A stretch of 64,000 nucleotides of DNA from assembly GCF_900095825.1 (NCBI RefSeq), contig NZ_LT608315.1:1662311-1726310 (forward strand), written 5' to 3'. Made by a program: the position numbers and the translations under genes. Below are positions 1,427 through 18,800 of this stretch, piece by piece. Each line of letters starts with the position of its first letter. Positions within the stretch are counted from its first letter, which is position 1. The stretch is from Acidaminococcus massiliensis (lineage in GTDB: Bacteria; Bacillota; Negativicutes; Acidaminococcales; Acidaminococcaceae). Below the pieces are notes generated by a model. That model was not told where the DNA came from. It did no database searches and was given only the letters and a program-made list of their open reading frames with translations.

Positions 1427-1743
1427 TGAGGGGAAACGCAGCCCGGAGCTGCTAACCCACCACCAGCCTTGCTGCTGGTCCCCCGCCCTTGAAAAGGGCG
1501 GATATAACGGAGTTGAGGTCGGAGGTTGGATTGTGCAGCGGTCCGAAAACGGAATCTTCGACAATTTCGTTTCTGTGATTCCCTCATTGCATCTCTGACT
1601 CCAACGTGGTGGGGGCTGCCCGCAGGGGAGCCCATCCCGGTCCATTCTGCTCATCGCCAACAAGCTTTCATCTGATTTCTGAAAGGCCCGCCAGGGTCGT
1701 TCTGTCAGCTTCTCTTTCTGTCCCCAATTTTCCCCACCTCTTT

Positions 1744-2290: not shown

Positions 2291-2318
2291 GATGAACGAC
2301 CAACGATGAACGATGAAC
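2291..2318. repeat. Heptanucleotide array (unit GATGAAC)
   Basis: Four head-to-tail 7-base units: GATGAAC, GACCAAC, GATGAAC, GATGAAC. The array lies between a terminator and the ribosome binding site of the next gene. It overlaps an upstream in-frame ATG (2306) that I reject as the start of that gene. Confidence 0.7.
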
Positions 2319-2341
2319 CACATTCCAGGAAGTGTTTGATC

Positions 2342-2929
2342 ATGGTGCTGAAAAACCGGCGGCTCAGCCGGGGACTGCTGGCCGGCTGTCTGCTGCTTTC
2401 TCTGGCGGCTGGGGGGAAGGCCCTGGCCCGGGAACCGGAGATCATGTCCAATCTGGGGGCCGTCACCATCAGCTGCTCCATTTATAAAAACCAGGCCGGG
2501 GTGGCGGGGGTGACTGCCGGGATCTCCCAGAGCCAGGTGGAGGAAGCATTGGGGGCGCCCCGATCGGTGAAATACGGACGGGGGACCATGGAATATTCCT
2601 ATCCCTCTCGGACCCTGCTGCTGGTCCATTTCAGTCCAGAAATGCCCTATGTGCTCATGGACATCAAGACCACCAACAGGGAGGATGCCACTCCGGACGG
2701 GGTCCAGGTGGGTATGGCTGAAACAGTGCTGAACGATGTGTACGGTGAGGCGGATGCGGTCTGGACCAAAAGGTATGAATCCCCCAAGATCCCCGAAGAA
2801 GACAACGCAAAGAACCACGCCAAACTGGACGAAACCATCTATGAATACCACGCCAATAAAACCACCACCCTGGCTTTTACCGTGAGGCAGGGCGTGATCC
2901 GGGAGATCCACGTGCATCAGGCGGAGTGA
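2342..2929 (+). CDS. Exported hypothetical protein with signal peptide
   Basis: The chosen start gives a 195-residue protein beginning with a classical signal peptide: basic MVLKNRRLSRG, a hydrophobic core GLLAGCLLLSLAAGG, and a probable cleavage after KALA. An AGGAAGTG ribosome binding site precedes this ATG, while the earlier in-frame ATG at 2306 falls inside a heptad repeat array. The mature part contains two similar half-repeats, around GVTAGISQSQVEEALGAPR and GVQVGMAETVLNDVYGEAD. This pattern resembles SmpA/OmlA-like 'BamE-type' envelope domains, in which a G(M/I)(S/T)...V...lG.P motif recurs. That likeness is an inference. The protein probably acts in the periplasm; its function is unknown. 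Confidence 0.75.
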   Translation: MVLKNRRLSRGLLAGCLLLSLAAGGKALAREPEIMSNLGAVTISCSIYKNQAGVAGVTAGISQSQVEEALGAPRSVKYGRGTMEYSYPSRTLLLVHFSPEMPYVLMDIKTTNREDATPDGVQVGMAETVLNDVYGEADAVWTKRYESPKIPEEDNAKNHAKLDETIYEYHANKTTTLAFTVRQGVIREIHVHQAE

Positions 2930-2936
2930 GGAAGAG

Positions 2937-3076
2937 AAGAAGTCAGACATGGCCCTGACGGGCCTTGGGATGTCAGACGTCAGATTTGTTCGGCTTAGCA
3001 GCAGGTCCGGACTATTTATCGCAGACAAGCTGACACCTGACGTCTGAAAGGCCTGTAAAGGCCGGTCTGACTTCTT
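2937..3076. repeat. Miniature inverted-repeat element, copy 1 (~140 bp)
   Basis: The ends are a perfect 12-bp inverted repeat, AAGAAGTCAGAC at 2937-2948 and GTCTGACTTCTT at 3065-3076. Inside are a left hairpin (GGCCC-tgac-GGGCC), heptads (GTCAGAC, GTCAGAT), a central spacer, the complementary arm (CTGACGTCTGA) and a right hairpin (GGCCT-gtaa-AGGCC). It carries no gene. A second copy with the same plan lies at 4335-4474. It could fold into one long nested hairpin. Confidence 0.7.
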
Positions 3077-3086
3077 TCGTATCCCA

Positions 3087-3115
3087 TTGACTCCCTCCTC
3101 TTCCGGGAGTATACT
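3087..3115 (+). promoter_or_regulatory. Sigma-70 type promoter of the aminotransferase gene
   Basis: TTGACT at 3087-3092 and TATACT at 3110-3115 are separated by exactly 17 bases. The spacer contains a small dyad (CTCCC...GGGAG). The promoter lies just outside the right end of miniature element copy 1 and 52 bases upstream of the ATG at 3167. Confidence 0.75.
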
Positions 3116-3166
3116 GTTAATTACTATTTTACAAGTAGGAATTAACACCAGGAAGGGACGAGATAC

Positions 3167-4336
3167 ATGGCTGATTTATCTTCGCGAACGGCGTCTTTTA
3201 CGGATTCGGTGATCCGGCGGATGACCCGGATTTCTTTACAGTATGATGCGGTGAACCTGAGCCAGGGGTTCCCGGATTGGGATCCTCCCAAAGAGATGGA
3301 GGAACGGCTGAGCCAGGTGGCCTTTACCGGGCCTCACCAGTACGCCGTCACCTGGGGCGCTCCCAATTTCCGTCAGGCCCTGGCGGCCAAGCAGAAGCAT
3401 TTCACTGGGCTGGACATCGATCCGGAAACGGAAATCGTCACCACCTGTGGCAGCACGGAAGCCATGATGGTGGCGGTGATGACGGTGACGGACCCAGGGG
3501 ATAAGGTCATCGTGTTTTCTCCCTTCTATGAAAATTACGGAGCCGATGCCATCCTCTGCGGGGCAGAGCCCATCTACGTACCTCTGGTGCCCCCAGATTA
3601 CCGGTTCGACCCGGAAGTGCTGGAAGCTGCCTTCCGGCAGCATCCCAAGGCCCTGATCCTGTGCAATCCTTCCAACCCCTGCGGCAAGGTATTCACCCGG
3701 CAGGAACTCCAGATCATTGCAGATCTGGCGGAGAAATACGATGTGTGGGTGATCACCGATGAGGTGTACGAGCACATTGTGTACAAGCCCTACCAGCACA
3801 TCTACTTTGCCACTCTGCCTCGGATGCGGGAGCGGACCCTTTCCTGCAGTTCCCTGTCCAAGACCTATTCCATCACCGGCTGGCGGCTGGGATACATCAT
3901 CGCCCCGCCGAAGGTGATCGATGAAGCCCGGAAAGTCCATGATTACTTGACCGTGGGGGCGGCGTCCCCTCTCCAGGAAGCAGCGGTCACCGGGCTCCGG
4001 TTCGGGGATGAGTATTATACCTGGCTCCGGGACCTGTACACCGACCGGCGGAATCTGATGCTGAAGGGGCTCCGGGATATTGGCCTGAAGCACACGGAAC
4101 CCCAGGGAGCCTATTACATCATGGTGGATATCTCCGATTTCGGCTATGCCAGCGATACGGAATTCTGTGAGGATCTGGCCAAGTACGTTGGCGTGGGGGC
4201 CGTCCCTGGGTCGGCCTTCTTCCACGAAAACATCACCAGCTACATGCGGCTCCATTTCGCCAAGAACCGGGAAACCCTGGAAGAAGCCCTGGAACGGCTC
4301 AGGGGGATCTACAAGAAGATGCCGGTGAGGAAATAA
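3167..4336 (+). CDS. PLP-dependent class I/II aminotransferase
   Basis: This 389-residue protein has the full fold-type I aminotransferase pattern. It shows the N-terminal VNLSQGFPDWDPP substrate loop, the TCGSTEAMM cofactor-binding loop, NPSNPCGK (Asn contact to the pyridine ring), ITDEVYEH (Asp to the ring nitrogen), SLSKTYSITGWRLGY with the Schiff-base lysine, and a C-terminal Arg (MRLHFAK) that binds the substrate carboxylate. Such enzymes swap an amino group between an amino acid and a 2-oxo acid in the cytoplasm. The opening sequence resembles the aspartate/kynurenine-type (PatA/YbdL-like) branch, but substrate preference cannot be read from sequence alone. It has its own promoter at 3087-3115 and is flanked on both sides by miniature repeat elements. 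Confidence 0.9.
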   Translation: MADLSSRTASFTDSVIRRMTRISLQYDAVNLSQGFPDWDPPKEMEERLSQVAFTGPHQYAVTWGAPNFRQALAAKQKHFTGLDIDPETEIVTTCGSTEAMMVAVMTVTDPGDKVIVFSPFYENYGADAILCGAEPIYVPLVPPDYRFDPEVLEAAFRQHPKALILCNPSNPCGKVFTRQELQIIADLAEKYDVWVITDEVYEHIVYKPYQHIYFATLPRMRERTLSCSSLSKTYSITGWRLGYIIAPPKVIDEARKVHDYLTVGAASPLQEAAVTGLRFGDEYYTWLRDLYTDRRNLMLKGLRDIGLKHTEPQGAYYIMVDISDFGYASDTEFCEDLAKYVGVGAVPGSAFFHENITSYMRLHFAKNRETLEEALERLRGIYKKMPVRK

Positions 4337-4474
4337 GAAGTCAGATCGGCCCTTCGGGCCTTTCAGGACTTCAGACGTCAGCTTGTTTGTGATAAGCAGT
4401 CCGGACCTGCTGCGCAGCCGGACAAACCTGACGTCTGACGTCTCAAGGCCCGTCAGGGCCGTGTCTGACTTCTT
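4335..4474. repeat. Miniature inverted-repeat element, copy 2 (140 bp)
   Basis: An 11-bp perfect terminal repeat, AAGAAGTCAGA at 4335-4345 and TCTGACTTCTT at 4464-4474, encloses hairpins (GGCCC-ttc-GGGCC and GGCCC-gtca-GGGCC) and two opposing heptad arms (CAGACGTCAG and CTGACGTCTGACGTCT). The element begins inside the stop codon of the aminotransferase gene. Middle sequences differ from copy 1, while ends and plan agree. Confidence 0.7.
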
Positions 4475-4556: not shown

Positions 4557-6314
4557 ATGTTTGAAGGCAGCATCCGGGAGGTGGTCCGGCCGGACCGGAT
4601 CCTTTCCTATTTTGAGCAGGAGAAGGCTGTCCTTTTGGTGGTGACGGCAACCGGCATCCTGTACAACCTGGGTATGGGAGCGGGGCCTTATTTCGAAGGC
4701 CAGCTGGCTCAGTGCCTGTATGACATTTTCCAGGGGAAGGCTGCGGCCGGGGACATGGTCCGTCTGGCGGCCCTCTATGTGGGGGTGATCTTCTTAGTCC
4801 AGCTGTCCCGGGCCGGGAAACGCTACAGCGTCCGGCTGTTCTCCAACCGGGTGAGCCGGACCATGCGCCATACCCTGTACCACAGCCTGGTGCGGCTGGA
4901 TGTCCGGGAACTCCAGCAGGAGAACCTGGGGAATTTGATGACCAAGGCCATGGGGGACGTGGACGCCTGTGCAGAAGGGATGCGGAAATTCACTACGGAA
5001 GTCTTCGACACCGGGGTGGTGATGGTGGTGTATCTGGGGCTGCTGCTGGCTTATGACTGGCGGCTGACCCTTTTGGCCTGCAGCTTCACCCCTCTGGCCT
5101 ATTGGATCGCCAACCGGCTGAAAAAACAGGTGGCCCAGGCCAACGGGGTCTACAAGGCCACGGAAGCCCGGCTGAACACCCTGACCCTGGACCGGGTGAG
5201 CCATGCTTTGACGTACCGGATCTACGGCCAGGAAAGCTGCCGGGATGCCGCCTATGAAACCCAGCTCACTGCTTACGAAAAGGCCAGTGCCCGGGCCAAT
5301 ATCTTCGAAGGGGCCCTGGGGCCTTTATACGATGCCATCGCCATGGCTGGGACCGTGGTGATTTTCTATTTCGGGGCCCGGAATGTCCAGGGCATCGGCT
5401 GGGAAGCCTGGAACATCGCCAGTTTCACCACTTTCCTGGCCTGCTTCACCAAACTTGCGGTGAAGACCAGCCATGCAGCCAAACTGTTCAATGCAGTCCA
5501 GAAAGCCCAGGTTTCCTGGCAGCGGATCAAGCCGCTCCTCCAGGCAGCCGCTCCGGAAGGAAAAAACCGTCTCCTGGGGCCGGTGGTACCGGTGACCTTG
5601 GAAGTCCGGGACCTGGCCTGCCATTATCCGGGCCAGCAGGAAGGCCTTGCCGGGATCTCCTTTACCGCCCGTCCCGGAGACATCATCGGCATCACAGGGC
5701 CGGTGGCCTGCGGCAAAAGCCTGTTGGGAAAGGTTTTCCTGGAGGAAGTCCCCTGGACTGGATCGATCCTCTGCAATGGAACGGATTTCCGTACCCTGGA
5801 CCGGGAACAGCGCCGGAGCCTGGTTTCCTACCTGGGCCATGATCCGGAGCTGCTCAGCACTTCCATTGGGGAAAACATCGCCTTGGGGGACCCGGTGGAC
5901 GTGGAAAAATTCCTCACGATGACCAACCTGAAGGAGGAAGTGGCAGCCATGCCCCAGGGAGCGGATACTCCGGTGGGCAGTGAAGGCACCCGGCTTTCCG
6001 GAGGACAGCAGGCTCGGATCGCCCTGGCCCGGACCCTGGCCCATGCCCGGTCGGTGCTGGTGCTGGATGATCCTTTTGCGGCTGTGGACCGGAAAGGGGA
6101 GACGAAGATCCTGGAACAGATGCGGCAGGCCTTTCCGGACCGGGTGATCCTGCTGATCTCCCACCGGCTCACCCATTTCCCGGAATTCACCGGAGTGCTG
6201 TTCTTGGATCAGGGATGGGGAAGCTTCGGGACCCATGAGGAACTGATGCAGCAGGAGCCCGGCTATGCCCGGCTGGTGAAGCTCCAGCAGGAAGGGGTGG
6301 ATCTGGATGAATAG
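4557..6314 (+). CDS. ABC exporter half-transporter, subunit 1 (degenerate catalytic site)
   Basis: The 585-residue protein has an N-terminal six-helix exporter membrane domain (about residues 25-310) and a C-terminal ATPase domain. The ATPase domain shows a Walker A GPVACGKS, a canonical signature LSGGQQ, Walker B VLVLDDPFA and an H-loop ISHRLTH. The residue after the Walker B Asp is Asp instead of the catalytic Glu, which marks a non-hydrolysing site. The gene overlaps the next ABC gene by 8 bases, so the two are translationally coupled and probably form a heterodimer like BmrCD or TM287/288. The substrate cannot be told from the sequence; drugs, lipids or peptides are all possible. Confidence 0.9.
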   Translation: MFEGSIREVVRPDRILSYFEQEKAVLLVVTATGILYNLGMGAGPYFEGQLAQCLYDIFQGKAAAGDMVRLAALYVGVIFLVQLSRAGKRYSVRLFSNRVSRTMRHTLYHSLVRLDVRELQQENLGNLMTKAMGDVDACAEGMRKFTTEVFDTGVVMVVYLGLLLAYDWRLTLLACSFTPLAYWIANRLKKQVAQANGVYKATEARLNTLTLDRVSHALTYRIYGQESCRDAAYETQLTAYEKASARANIFEGALGPLYDAIAMAGTVVIFYFGARNVQGIGWEAWNIASFTTFLACFTKLAVKTSHAAKLFNAVQKAQVSWQRIKPLLQAAAPEGKNRLLGPVVPVTLEVRDLACHYPGQQEGLAGISFTARPGDIIGITGPVACGKSLLGKVFLEEVPWTGSILCNGTDFRTLDREQRRSLVSYLGHDPELLSTSIGENIALGDPVDVEKFLTMTNLKEEVAAMPQGADTPVGSEGTRLSGGQQARIALARTLAHARSVLVLDDPFAAVDRKGETKILEQMRQAFPDRVILLISHRLTHFPEFTGVLFLDQGWGSFGTHEELMQQEPGYARLVKLQQEGVDLDE

Positions 6315-9107: not shown

Positions 9108-10122
9108 AGTATCCCAGCTTCTTCTTCAACCCTTCCATATCTTTCTCCGATAAGAAAGGCCGGATCACATCCAGGTAATATTCCGCTTCTTTTTCCCGTC
9201 CGGCCTGGTGGCAGGTCTGGGCTCCGCCGGCAGCCAGCCGGAGGATTTCCACATTGGGGCCCAGGGGGATCCCCTGTTTTTCTGCGAACGCCGTCAGTTC
9301 TTCCTGGGAAGCGGGGGCCAGGTCTTTTCCCAGCTTCTGGACCGCCGTTTCCAGCTGGGCTTTCACAGTCTCTGTTTCTCCGTAGTTCAGGCTCAGGAGG
9401 AACGCGTACCGGGCTCCCTGCCAGTCTTCCCGGCGGAGCAGCAGGATTCCTTCATTTTGGTAGCAACGGGCCAGGTCTTTGGGACGGAAGGCCTGCCGGA
9501 AGGCTTCCCGGTTCACCCGTCCGAAGCTTTCCCAATCTTCTTCCTCTTTCAGTACGGCCAGATAGCAGGCCCGTACCGGGGCACTGGCCGGGTCCCATTT
9601 CAATCCTTTTTCCAAGGCTTTCCGGGCTGCCTTCGTCCGGCCTTGGGCCAGTTCCAGTTCTCCCAGGGTGAGGTACAGGAGATGGAAGGGGAAGGGAGCC
9701 TGCTGGATTTTCTTCTTCGGATGGAAGAACTGCCGGTACACCACCATTTCCATCGGCTCTGCAAAGGAGCGGAATTCCACTTCTGAATCAGGCTGGAACA
9801 GGGCCGAATGTTCCGCTTCCTGAAGGTGAGGCTCCAGGACTTTCCGGGCGCCGTCGAAATCCTGGACAGCGGCGCGCTTCCGGGCTTCTTCCAGATCTTT
9901 CCGGAATTTCTCGAAGGCCTTGCTGAACAGATCCGCAAAATGCTGCCGGCTTTCTTCCGGCATCAGTTTGTACAGCAGCTGGCTGCAGGCCCGGCTGATC
10001 TCCCGGTGCAGGGGATGGTCCCGGTACAGTTCGATGCAGCCTTGGAGATATTTGATGTCCTTCTGGGATTCTCCCGTCAGGTTGTCCGTGATCGATTTGA
10101 TGATGGTATCCAATTCTTCCAT
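9106..10122 (-). CDS. TPR-repeat protein of unknown function
   Basis: A 338-residue soluble protein made mostly of helices. Tetratricopeptide-like units can be seen around residues 145-240 (LTLGELELAQGRTKAARKAL, YLAVLKEEEDWESFGRVNREA, ARCYQNEGILLLRREDWQGA), with more degenerate repeats before and after. It has no signal peptide or catalytic motif, so it is probably a cytoplasmic scaffold. The start is supported by GGAGG nine bases or so upstream of the ATG. It is transcribed divergently from the SLC13-type transporter. I do not recognise it further. Confidence 0.8.
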   Translation of the reverse strand: MEELDTIIKSITDNLTGESQKDIKYLQGCIELYRDHPLHREISRACSQLLYKLMPEESRQHFADLFSKAFEKFRKDLEEARKRAAVQDFDGARKVLEPHLQEAEHSALFQPDSEVEFRSFAEPMEMVVYRQFFHPKKKIQQAPFPFHLLYLTLGELELAQGRTKAARKALEKGLKWDPASAPVRACYLAVLKEEEDWESFGRVNREAFRQAFRPKDLARCYQNEGILLLRREDWQGARYAFLLSLNYGETETVKAQLETAVQKLGKDLAPASQEELTAFAEKQGIPLGPNVEILRLAAGGAQTCHQAGREKEAEYYLDVIRPFLSEKDMEGLKKKLGY

Positions 10123-11717: not shown

Positions 11718-12764
11718 TTGCCCATGACGGAGAAGAAAAAGAAAAGATCCTGGCTCCGGTCCAAGATCACGTTCCTGGTACTGACCCTGGTGGTGATCTT
11801 GGGGGTGGTGGGGTACAATTACCGGACGGATATCGAGATGCGCATCATCCACCTGAAGCCCCAGCCGGTGCAGAAAGTGGAACTGGGGAAACTGGGGCTC
11901 CAGCTCCAGCGGTTCAACACGCCGGAAATCACCAGCTACGATGTGGACAAGATCCTGAGCTTCGTGATCCGGGACGATAAATTCTATCTGGCCCTCCGGA
12001 GCCAGGATGGAGACAGCACAGCCGTCCAGGCTTATGAGCGGCAGGAAGGGAGCCTGTTCCCCTTCCGGAATTTCGGGAAAAAAGGCACCTACACCATCTC
12101 GGAAAAGATGGTCCTCAGCGTGAACATCGCCGGCAATGGGGATGTGGTCTATGTGAAAAAAGGGCTCCACACCCTCCGGGACGGGAATGACATCATCAGC
12201 CTGAAGGGGAACACCACCGCCACCCGAGTGGCTTTCCTTCCAGGCTATGAGCAGGCCTATCTCTACGGCAACGATAATTTCACCCTGGCGGATTATCGGG
12301 ATGGGGCCTTTGAAAAGAATCATCCTTCCTTTCTCCACAACCGGGCCAAACCTTTTGCCGGAGGCCTGACCCAGGTACGGATCACCGGGAAGGGTGTCAT
12401 CTTTGGAGGAGGCCGGATCAAACCCAACGGGCTCAATATGGTGGAAGCCTTCACTCCCCAGGGCAAAGCCCTCCAAAGCTATGGCAGCCCCATCCAAACA
12501 GACAAGGATTCCATCTACAATCTGATCGATATGGCGGTACTGGACCATTATCTGGTGGTCATCGATGGGTTCACCTTGAAATTCTGGACCCGGGAAGGGC
12601 AGTATCTGGGGAACCTGAACAGTTCCAAGATGTTGGGGGACAACCTGAACTGTGCCAAACTGGCCCCCATCGACGGGAATACCCTGGGGATCCTGGCTTT
12701 TGTCCGGAATGCCCAGACCCGGCTGGTGGAAATCAAGATCTTCGCACTGACGTTTCCGAGGTAA
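11718..12764 (+). CDS. Membrane-anchored hypothetical protein, possible beta-propeller
   Basis: A TTG start at 11718 is chosen because AAAGGAGG ends nine bases before it; the ATG at 11724 is too far (15 bases). The product (348 residues) opens with a very basic stretch (TEKKKKRSWLRSK), then one hydrophobic helix (ITFLVLTLVVILGVVGY), then a large domain that should lie outside the inner membrane. That domain is rich in short strand-turn-strand units (VVYVKKGLHTL, AYLYGNDNFTLADY, LVVIDGFTLKFWTREGQYLG), which suggests a beta-propeller. I cannot assign a function. It ends at the hairpin at 12768. Confidence 0.7.
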   Translation: MPMTEKKKKRSWLRSKITFLVLTLVVILGVVGYNYRTDIEMRIIHLKPQPVQKVELGKLGLQLQRFNTPEITSYDVDKILSFVIRDDKFYLALRSQDGDSTAVQAYERQEGSLFPFRNFGKKGTYTISEKMVLSVNIAGNGDVVYVKKGLHTLRDGNDIISLKGNTTATRVAFLPGYEQAYLYGNDNFTLADYRDGAFEKNHPSFLHNRAKPFAGGLTQVRITGKGVIFGGGRIKPNGLNMVEAFTPQGKALQSYGSPIQTDKDSIYNLIDMAVLDHYLVVIDGFTLKFWTREGQYLGNLNSSKMLGDNLNCAKLAPIDGNTLGILAFVRNAQTRLVEIKIFALTFPR

Positions 12765-15837: not shown

Positions 15838-18800
15838 ATGGCCAGTTTTACCAATCAGCAGCAGGAAGCCATCTCGACCCTGGACCGGAATGTATCGGTA
15901 TCCGCCGGTGCCGGTTCCGGCAAGACCCGGGTCCTGGTGGAACGGTTCCTGAAGATCTTGGGGGACCGGCAGGCCACCGCCCAGGAGATCCTGGCCATTA
16001 CCTTTACCCGGAAAGCTGCCCGGGAAATGCGGGAACGGGTCCAACAAGGAATCTTGGACCGGCTGGGGGCTGCAGAAGCTACGGATGACAAAACCTACTG
16101 GCAGGAACAGCTCCGGCTGGCAGACCAGGCACCCATCACCACCATCGACAGCTTCTGCTCCCAGGTGCTTCGGGAAAATCCGGTGGAGGCAGGACTGGAT
16201 CCCAATTTCACCGTACAGGAAGAATACCAGATCCGGGCATTCCGGGAAGAAACGGCCAGTGCCTTCCTCCAGCAGGGGATCCAGCAGCAGAATCCGGATC
16301 TTACAGCACTTTTGGAGCAGTATCCAGCAGACCAGCTGGCTAGGATCCTGACGGCCCTCATCGACCGGCTGCCGGAAATCCTGGCCCTGCCTGGGGGACT
16401 GGCGGCTGCTTATGAAACCAGCCTGGGCCGGGAAGAAGAATACAAAATCGCCGCAGAGGCCGCCCTGGATGCCCTGCTGGCCGCCCGGGACCAGGCATCC
16501 CCCAAAAACCGGGAAAAACTGGAAGACCTGTTTGGCCAGCGGGCCGCCTTCCACCAGTGGATCGCTGGGGGAGACGGGGACGCTGCCCTGGCAGCCCTGA
16601 AACCGGTTACGGCAGCGGGAAAGGTGAAAGACCAGGTGAAGGAAGTCCGGGCCGCCTTGGAACAGCTGGCTGCCCTTTCTTTGGATGCCCAGGGGGCGGA
16701 CCAGGCACGGCACTGGGAAAAGGTCCTCACCTGTTTCCGCAAGGCCCTGCTGGATGCGGCGGAAACCCGGGAAATCTACAGTTTCGGCTATCTTTCCGCC
16801 AAGGCGGTGGACTTGCTGGAGCAGCGGCCCAATGTGCTCAACCGGTATAAGAAACGGTTCAAGTTCCTCATGGTGGACGAATTCCAGGATACCAATGAAG
16901 AACAGAAAAAAATGGTGTATCTCCTCAGCGGAGGCAGCAGCCGGAGTCTCCAGGGCCGGAACCTGTTCGTGGTGGGGGATGCCAAGCAGTCCATCTACCG
17001 GTTCCGGGGGGCGGATGTGAGCGTGTTCAAGCAGGTCCGGGACGCCATCGAGGCCACCGGAGGACGGAACATCGTCATGGATGACAACTTCCGTTCCGCT
17101 CCGGAAATCATCCGCGCCTGCAATACCCTATTCGACGATCTTTTGGGTACGGACTCCAATGCCGATGTGACGGCCCAGCCCCTCCACGCCCATCAGCCTC
17201 CTTCCCGGAAGCCGGTGTTCGCCGTCCTGAAAAAAGGAGAGTGCAGCCCCAAAGAATGTCAGCAGGCAGAAGGCCGGTACGTGGCCCAGGCTATCCGGCA
17301 GCTGGGGGAAGAGGAACATCTGCCTTACGGCCAGATGGCCATCCTGCTGCCGGCCATCCATCTTTCCCGGCAGTATGAAGAAGCTCTGACGGCACTGGGC
17401 ATCAAGAGCCAGGTCAGCGACGGCAAAGGCTTCTATGACCGGCAGGAAATCGTGGACTGGATCAACTTGCTGACTTTCCTCCTGAATCCTCGGAAGGACT
17501 GGGCCCTGGCCGGTTTCCTCCGGTCTCCTTTTGCTGGGCTCAGCGACCGGCAGCTGACGGATCTCCTGAAGCCTTGGCCGGAACTGAGCCTGTGGGAAAG
17601 CCTCCAACAGAGTTTGGAGGAGCCCTATAGCACCTTGGCCCAGAAATTGGAAAAACTGCGGCAGATTGCCCAGTTCCAGTCCCTGCCGGAACTTTTGGAC
17701 CGCTTCCAGGAAAGCTTCGCTGTGGAACCCACCCTGCTGGTCCAGCGGGGTGGACGGGAAAAACTGGCCAATTTCCGGAAACTCCGGGCCCTGGGCGTCC
17801 AGGCAGCCATGGAGGAGGGCAGCACCGCCCGGGATTTCCTGGACCGGCTGAACCTGATGCGCCAGCTTTCGGCCCGGGAAAGTGCAGCCAATCAGGAAGC
17901 AGATCCCGATGCGGTGAAGATCATGACCATCCATAAGTCCAAAGGATTGGAATTCCCGGCGGTGTTCCTGCCGGATCTGTCCAAAAAAGATCCTCCTGAC
18001 AGATTGGGGATCCAGTTCCTGCCGGAAGAAGGCTTTGGGGTAAAAGTGCTGGATCGGGAAGGGAACGACCGGGAAACATCGGTCTATGCCCGGCTGAAGG
18101 AAGAAGGGAGCCGTCTGGAAAAGGCGGAAAAGCACAGACAGCTGTATGTGGCCATGACCCGGGCGGAAAGATTCCTGTATCTGGTGAACGTGGACGAAAG
18201 CAAAGAAGGGAAGCAAAAGGACAGCGACCCGGAAAAGGAAAAATGGGGCCAGGCCCTCCAGCGGGTATTCGCTCCGGAAGGGCCCAACGGAGACCAGATG
18301 GACTGGGAAGAACTGTCTGTGGCGGAAATTTTGGCAGACACAGAGGAAAGACAGGAAGGGGAGGCGGATACCTTTGCCCTGGATCCGGCAGTCTATGATC
18401 GGATCCAGCCGGTGACCGTGCCTCGGAACTTGGAACTGTCCGCCAGTGCCCTTTTGGAATACGATACCTGTCCCCGGAGTTTTTACTACCATTATTTCCG
18501 GCATATGCCCGGCCTCGATCCGGAAACGTTCGGTACGGGGAACCATCGGATCTCGGCCATCGAACTGGGGACCTACGTGCACAAAGTGCTGGAACGGCTC
18601 CAGGAAGTGCCGGAGGAAACGGCTTTAGAGGAAGCCCTGGAGGTGCTGGACCATCCGGATGCTGAAAAACAGGTGTTCCGCCGGGAAGGAAAGAAACTGG
18701 TGGAACGGTATTGTGCCAGCCCCTTGTACCAGGAACTGAAAGACCTGCCTGCCCAGGCAGAGCGGGATTTCGAACTGCCCCTTTTTGTCTTTGGGGACAG

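Follow-up and report, generated by a model that had tools for sequence, protein, structure and literature searches.

In the gut bacterium Acidaminococcus massiliensis, a gene for a putative aminotransferase lies between two copies of a repeat of about 140 bp. The arrangement occurs in a window of 64,000 nt (contig NZ_LT608315.1, positions 1,662,311 to 1,726,310), the whole stretch of DNA that we analysed. It raises the question of what the repeat is, and of whether its copies had a part in bringing the gene to this site.

The repeat and the gene it brackets

We refer to the repeat as EL, and searched for it using a covariance model (R1) built from 26 copies in the host genome (G000), with a threshold of E<=0.001. 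Nine genomes of the genus were compared, including three EL-bearing congeners (G001, G004 and G008). The features at the locus are as follows.

1653..1713, + strand: broken right half of an EL, beside a second repeat family (match to the EL right half; repeat families D1 and D3)
2306..2929, + strand: upstream gene, 207 aa, no Pfam match
2937..3076, + strand: EL1, element copy 1 (R1 model, 137.7 bits, E 1.5e-34)
3087..3115, + strand: sigma-70-like promoter match (TTGACT-17-TATACT) in the gap that separates EL1 from the aminotransferase gene (1 found versus 0.8 expected, no evidence alone)
3167..4336, + strand: class I/II aminotransferase gene, 389 aa, bracketed by EL1 and EL2 (PF00155, 225.5 bits)
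4335..4474, - strand (reverse orientation): EL2, element copy 2 (R1 model, 130.1 bits, E 1.6e-32)
4557..6314, + strand: downstream gene, 585 aa, ABC-transporter-like as judged from reading its sequence

EL is composed of outer arms (AAGAAGTCAGA/TCTGACTTCTT), one GGCC hairpin within each arm, and a centre that forms a long hairpin. The arm TCTGACTTCTT occurs without mismatch at 2937-2947 (-), 3066-3076 (+), 4335-4345 (-) and 4464-4474 (+); with at most one mismatch it has five matches in the window versus 1.03 expected, a number reached in 0 of 100 shuffles. EL1 starts 7 bp past the upstream gene's stop codon. EL2 overlaps the end of the aminotransferase gene, its first two bases falling within that gene's TAA stop codon. 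An earlier note on this DNA had described two units of about 140 bp with shared ends and inner GGCC hairpins, and it was exact in the coordinates of the units and correct in the hairpins. It had also taken their centres to differ, which is an effect of orientation: EL2 is the reverse complement of EL1 (83% complementary as inverted repeats, 140 nt each), and once inverted it is 0.829 identical to EL1 over the alignment. The two copies, mutually inverted, are not each other's nearest copies. The partial right arm that the note had placed near 1661-1720 is real, with 1653-1713 matching the right half of EL.

A reading of these repeats as DNA-uptake sequences was rejected. The exact matches of TGACGTCTGA (4 in the window) all fall within EL1 and EL2, and with one mismatch there are 5 matches versus 2.37 expected, a number as high in 8 of 100 shuffles and within chance. 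Repeated GTCTGA words that form terminators are reportedly known from the uptake sequences of Neisseria. Within the window, no Rfam family matches at or above its gathering score. Separately, tandem short words like GATGAACGA(C) lie at about 2288-2320, near the start of the 2306-2929 open reading frame, and similar words lie by other repeats in relatives.

Distribution, fold and position of EL

EL is a genus-restricted family of near-palindromic interspersed elements of about 140 bp. Its ends, which the earlier note had proposed to search for genome-wide, do recur, and R1 identifies 46 distinct places in the host genome (87 matches over both strands), 7 in G001, 6 in G004 and 11 in G008. The remaining five genomes of the genus contain no R1 match at E<=0.001. 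Among 59 genomes of the bacterial family, R1 finds EL in these same four and no others, all of the host genus, under stricter filters that may lose weak matches. The 26 own-genome copies have a mean identity of 79% (range 64-95%). An exact-pattern scan of a contig collection returned nothing; near relatives' records may be missing from that collection, so the scan is silent on the genus. A search of the literature on Acidaminococcus with repeat terms, which relied on partial-term matching and covered few subscription papers, had no account of the repeat among the papers listed. Extra solo arms occur beside ELs, in mosaic clusters. A 36-bp single-hairpin form, consisting of the outer arms and one GGCC hairpin, lies directly 3′ of a DAPG-hydrolase gene in both G000 (L050 788-823) and G004 (L124 5957-5992).

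Like a REPIN, EL is an inverted pair of palindromic arms that make one hairpin. Folded as RNA, EL1 has z-scores of −7.55 (+) and −8.13 (-), EL2 of −11.60 (+) and −9.37 (-), and a third copy of −15.36 (five folds of three copies altogether). A rod and a cloverleaf are both predicted to fit EL, the cloverleaf scoring slightly higher: across 26 copies, 89.7% of cells are paired in the cloverleaf versus 88.9% shuffled (2/500), and 88.4% in the rod versus 87.8% shuffled (14/500). When the set is widened to 43 copies, drawn from four genomes, 85.7% of cells are paired in the cloverleaf versus 84.6% shuffled (0/500), with 38 two-sided changes versus 27.5 shuffled (4/500) and a covariation score of 0.113 versus 0.104 (15/500). 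For the same 43 copies, the number of pairs with a two-sided change (16 versus 13.5; 88/500) and of further pair types (62 versus 59.8; 134/500) are not outstanding, and the consensus that RNAalifold itself derives for EL has a covariation term of +0.79 and so shows no covariation. Covariation support for the predicted fold is moderate, because related copies inflate such counts.

ELs tend to sit directly 3′ of stop codons. Two further partial copies from a DNA search brought the places used in the analysis of position to 48; with crude gene calls of our own, it covered 40 of the 42 places given, two being dropped for having one side without a called gene. An EL lies within 43 bp of a stop codon in 24 of 44 distances, and within 43 bp of a start codon in 4 of 36. 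The neighbouring genes are oriented ++ at 13 places, -- at 13, convergently at 9 and divergently at 5. A terminator scan gives matches at the outer ends of EL1 and EL2, with a total for the region (3 versus 1.7 expected, sd 1.3) that is within chance.

We read the orthologous flanks in detail at five sites, three in L035 and two in L042. At L035 3093, 12538-12723 and 17358, EL is absent from G004, G001 and G008. Likewise, EL is absent from G001 and G008 at L042 14889 (G004 lies outside coverage), and from G004 and G008 at L042 4912, where G001 has a divergent hairpin nearby, unreported by R1. The empty alleles that the earlier note had wished to see in relatives thus exist at all five sites read, indicating that EL is mobile. 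Its proposal of MITE- or REP-like units agrees with a dispersed non-coding family whose sites are occupied in one species and empty in others. Elsewhere the sister species also carry an EL or a piece of one, namely at the window site, L040 1852 and L034 (G004), and at L031 4990 and L049 (G001). L040 7526-7663, compared with the congener locus L119, was rejected as a clean empty site: about 11 left-arm bases remain there, pointing to a deletion or an ambiguous case.

The same flanks bear on the probable role of EL as a terminator. By eye, each of the three L035 sites has, in one relative or more, an ordinary hairpin with a T-run where the host has EL; specifically, a terminator-like hairpin stands in the place of EL in G004 and G008 at 3093, in G004 and G008 at 12538-12723, and in G008 at 17358. 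At both L042 sites (4912 and 14889), EL and an ordinary terminator-like hairpin stand side by side in the host, indicating that EL is an addition there and that replacement is not universal. EL probably acts as a two-way terminator, at times replacing an older one and at times standing beside it.

Genes between EL copies

At the window site, G004 has the upstream gene, a single EL and the downstream gene, and lacks the aminotransferase gene. The single EL, which is interrupted by another repeat, shares its left junction with EL1, and its right junction aligns with that of EL2; matched blocks of the two genomes are 84.5-87.5% identical here. In G001, a stub of EL lies 3′ of the upstream gene, and a stub of an arm lies 5′ of the downstream gene, which is itself located elsewhere. 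The aminotransferase was not found in the eight other genomes of the genus at E<=1e-80. In the family it occurs in 6 of 59 genomes, where, apart from the host, identity does not exceed 64%. The closest protein among the matches found, from a pattern search that returns close relatives only in a collection that may omit the host genus, is from Mitsuokella (78% identity). Mitsuokella is placed in a different order from Acidaminococcus, and an 11-kb Mitsuokella stretch (L051) contains no EL. The comparison fits a gain of the aminotransferase gene along with one extra EL; taken alone, the window site would also allow loss of the gene in G004. The earlier note had suggested that the copies bracket the gene and could mobilise it. 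The first half is borne out, with the bracketed gene missing at the same site in G004; mobilisation itself is something that we infer from this comparison.

EL copies are clustered. Adjacent pairs closer than 2 kb number 15 versus 1.7 expected (0/20000 simulations), and still 9 versus 1.3 (0/20000) with a tandem array and one doublet collapsed, where the null places copies at random along the contig, without regard to gene ends. According to Pfam, other EL-bracketed genes encode an epimerase/dehydratase, a SAICAR synthetase, a beta-eliminating lyase, a DUF542/hemerythrin protein, an AhpC/TSA and YaaA-type pair, an ADP-ribosylglycohydrolase with an exonuclease/phosphatase-type gene, and a helicase-type gene. 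Bracketing alone does not mark acquisition, because some bracketed genes (e.g. purC) look like core genes.

Four of the seven known Rpn-family genes of the host have an EL on either side (L031 twice, L032 and L034). The others have a one-sided EL (1843 kb), a one-sided short EL-like hairpin (2210 kb) and neither (1597 kb). Five of the seven pass PF12784, the paralogues at L032 and L034 scoring below cut-offs; the L031 protein scores 125.5 bits for TIGR01784 (cut-off 52.1). The EL-rpn-EL unit of L031 is a tandem duplication, 97% identical, with homology stopping at the outer EL ends, while the L032 and L034 units, 88.5% alike, make a second unit type, so that the four units represent two independent types. 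The 5′ EL of L034 is truncated. In G001, G004 and G008, the left flank of L032 is followed by neither EL nor rpn, and the right flank is non-syntenic. What looked like an EL-rpn-EL arrangement in G001 (L121), set against a single EL in G000 (L049), gives weak support: its insert consists of a 3′ piece of rpn and other open reading frames, and both ELs are broken or divergent. Among the nine genomes, PF12784 is present in 4 of 4 with EL and 1 of 5 without, a comparison confounded by descent.

The second rpn copy of the L031 array (9175-10014) has a frameshift near its start relative to the first. The C-terminal tails of the Rpn proteins contain short KG/EG/QG-type repeat units whose number varies between copies; C-terminal short-repeat variation of Rpn in other species is described in part of PMC10327210. 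Rpn-type genes in G004 (L090 1170-1482, 2317-2626) and G008 (L083 956-1123, 2498-2667) are flanked by direct repeats that are not EL and are 86% alike.

In G004, a DAPG-hydrolase gene and its TetR-like neighbour (22.0 bits, below the cut-off of 26.1) lie between an EL and EL arms. The module (L124 4492-5997) is 97.5% identical to its counterpart in G000 (L050 783-2288), versus 78.8-95.0% for other blocks longer than 500 bp, which suggests a recent transfer between the species. In another G004 stretch (L125 1-5390), the DUF542/hemerythrin gene and the beta-eliminating lyase gene that are EL-bracketed in G000 (L040) are reordered, with 91% and 95% identity.

We favour, with moderate confidence, the explanation that EL is a REPIN/MITE-like element at terminator positions and that genes are gained by recombination at its copies. 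EL would spread as a non-autonomous element of this kind, settling at transcription-terminator positions, and a gene arriving with its own EL would join a resident EL to give EL-gene-EL, as may have happened with the aminotransferase here and with Rpn-nuclease genes elsewhere. Since the window ELs are inverted and are not mutual nearest copies, a simple circle-by-EL event would not be the sole route. New genes may dock at ELs. With a repeat at terminator positions, an incoming foreign gene could become a transcription unit of its own and leave the genes beside it intact. Moreover, rpn genes may have a vehicle in EL, a testable possibility that is suggested by the EL pairs around them and by sister-species alleles that have a single EL at some sites.

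The alternative that survives best, possible if rather unlikely, is ordinary homologous recombination or tandem duplication between ELs in hotspots of gene turnover, which ELs and rpn would share with no functional link. The tandem duplication at L031, the non-EL repeats around rpn genes in G004 and G008, and the differing gene order around L040 are consistent with it, and it is largely compatible with the recombination part of the explanation that we favour; on its own, it leaves the dispersal of solo ELs unexplained.

Candidate movers and related systems

A second alternative is that EL is a classical MITE of a DDE transposase that inserts independently behind genes, in which case bracketing would be a by-product of density and the aminotransferase gene would have come otherwise. 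The terminal inverted repeats, the many copies, the polymorphic sites and the core-looking bracketed genes, such as purC, accord with such an element. However, the target duplications that the earlier note had asked about are absent from the 24 usable copies of 43 (mean 2.21 versus 2.16 shuffled; 93 of 200 shuffles reach the observed mean), adjacent EL pairs far exceed random placement (on a null that is even along the contig, not at gene ends), and the EL-gene-EL of the host corresponds to a lone EL in G004. The search that the note had proposed for a transposase with matching ends gave none among the bracketed genes examined; genome-wide it covered the Y1 family, whose genes do not track EL. 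We consider a DDE-type MITE unlikely. MITEs and composites bounded by MITEs or TIMEs, as described in parts of PMC13367494, PMC3934969 and PMC10969869, resemble EL in being short and non-coding, with terminal inverted repeats and two copies that bound cargo; unlike them, EL has neither a target duplication nor an end-matching transposase among those found, and tends to lie 3′ of stop codons. Several copies of an IS110-family transposase gene lie within a few hundred bases of ELs (L034 6394-7797, L047 3502-4905, L039 3839-5242).

Less likely still, ELs could be REPINs of a RAYT (Y1 transposase) since lost or decayed in the host genome. The two facing arms, each with its own small hairpin, the extra solo arms and the 36-bp single-hairpin form are in keeping with this, as is a single weak Y1 piece on host contig C3 (25.9 bits). 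Yet EL-bearing G004 has no Y1 gene, and Y1 is present in EL-free G003, G005, G006 and G007; we rejected a RAYT as the mobiliser because Y1 genes do not track EL across the genus. The RAYT-associated repeats covered in part by PMC3733652 carry a GTAG or CGTC tag at one end; of 43 EL copies, 0 have GTAG at an end and 13 have CGTC there. EL nevertheless shares with REPINs and BIMEs (PMC3116915 and PMC2817692, each in part) short extragenic palindromes, paired inverted arms that give a long hairpin, and mosaic clusters with extra arms; it differs in having no RAYT that tracks it, in lacking the GTAG tag, and in its length of 140 bp with a GGCC hairpin in each arm.

That Rpn is what moves EL is a guess. 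A PD-(D/E)XK Rpn would act on EL cruciforms and promote EL-by-EL joining, making ELs capture sites for rpn and for cargo, such as the aminotransferase gene, behind terminators; we regard this as a long shot. If it were true, EL and Rpn would be partners as a RAYT and its repeats are, but with a nuclease instead of a transposase, and the system would serve rpn genes as a vehicle. Rpn/YhgA-like nucleases (PMC5350276 and PMC10327210, each in part) are the family to which these EL-bracketed genes belong. The portion of PMC10327210 used here describes the rpn defence genes as moving widely, probably by hitchhiking, their coding regions having no identifiable flanking terminal inverted repeats or target duplications, unlike the host genes here, four of whose seven known members lie between ELs.

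That ELs are plain terminators that arose in place, immobile and alike by convergence, would suit their location 3′ of stop codons but is scarcely credible, as 26 copies are 79% identical on average, and up to 95%, over their full length, and EL is absent from sister species at five sites.

Integron gene cassettes are also similar in outline, being single-gene units with a palindromic site (attC) 3′ of each gene. The core sites of attC are RYYYAAC ... GTTRRRY, and none of 43 EL copies has these motifs in the order expected, so that an attC identity was rejected. In Streptococcus pneumoniae, SPRITE resembles a rho-independent terminator, and SPRITE, RUP and BOX cluster together (PMC10969869, in part); EL is likened to them by description, not sequence, and they belong to a different phylum branch.

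The second repeat family beside the broken EL of the window (about 1440-1652) recurs at L031 8836-9014 and at L034 4506-4721 and 6140-6355. Parts of it match window positions ~1384-1506 and ~1507-1640; matches to it are numerous in G004 and occur in G000, G001 and G008 too. At L034, the EL-rpn-EL unit lies between two copies of this family that are 99% identical.
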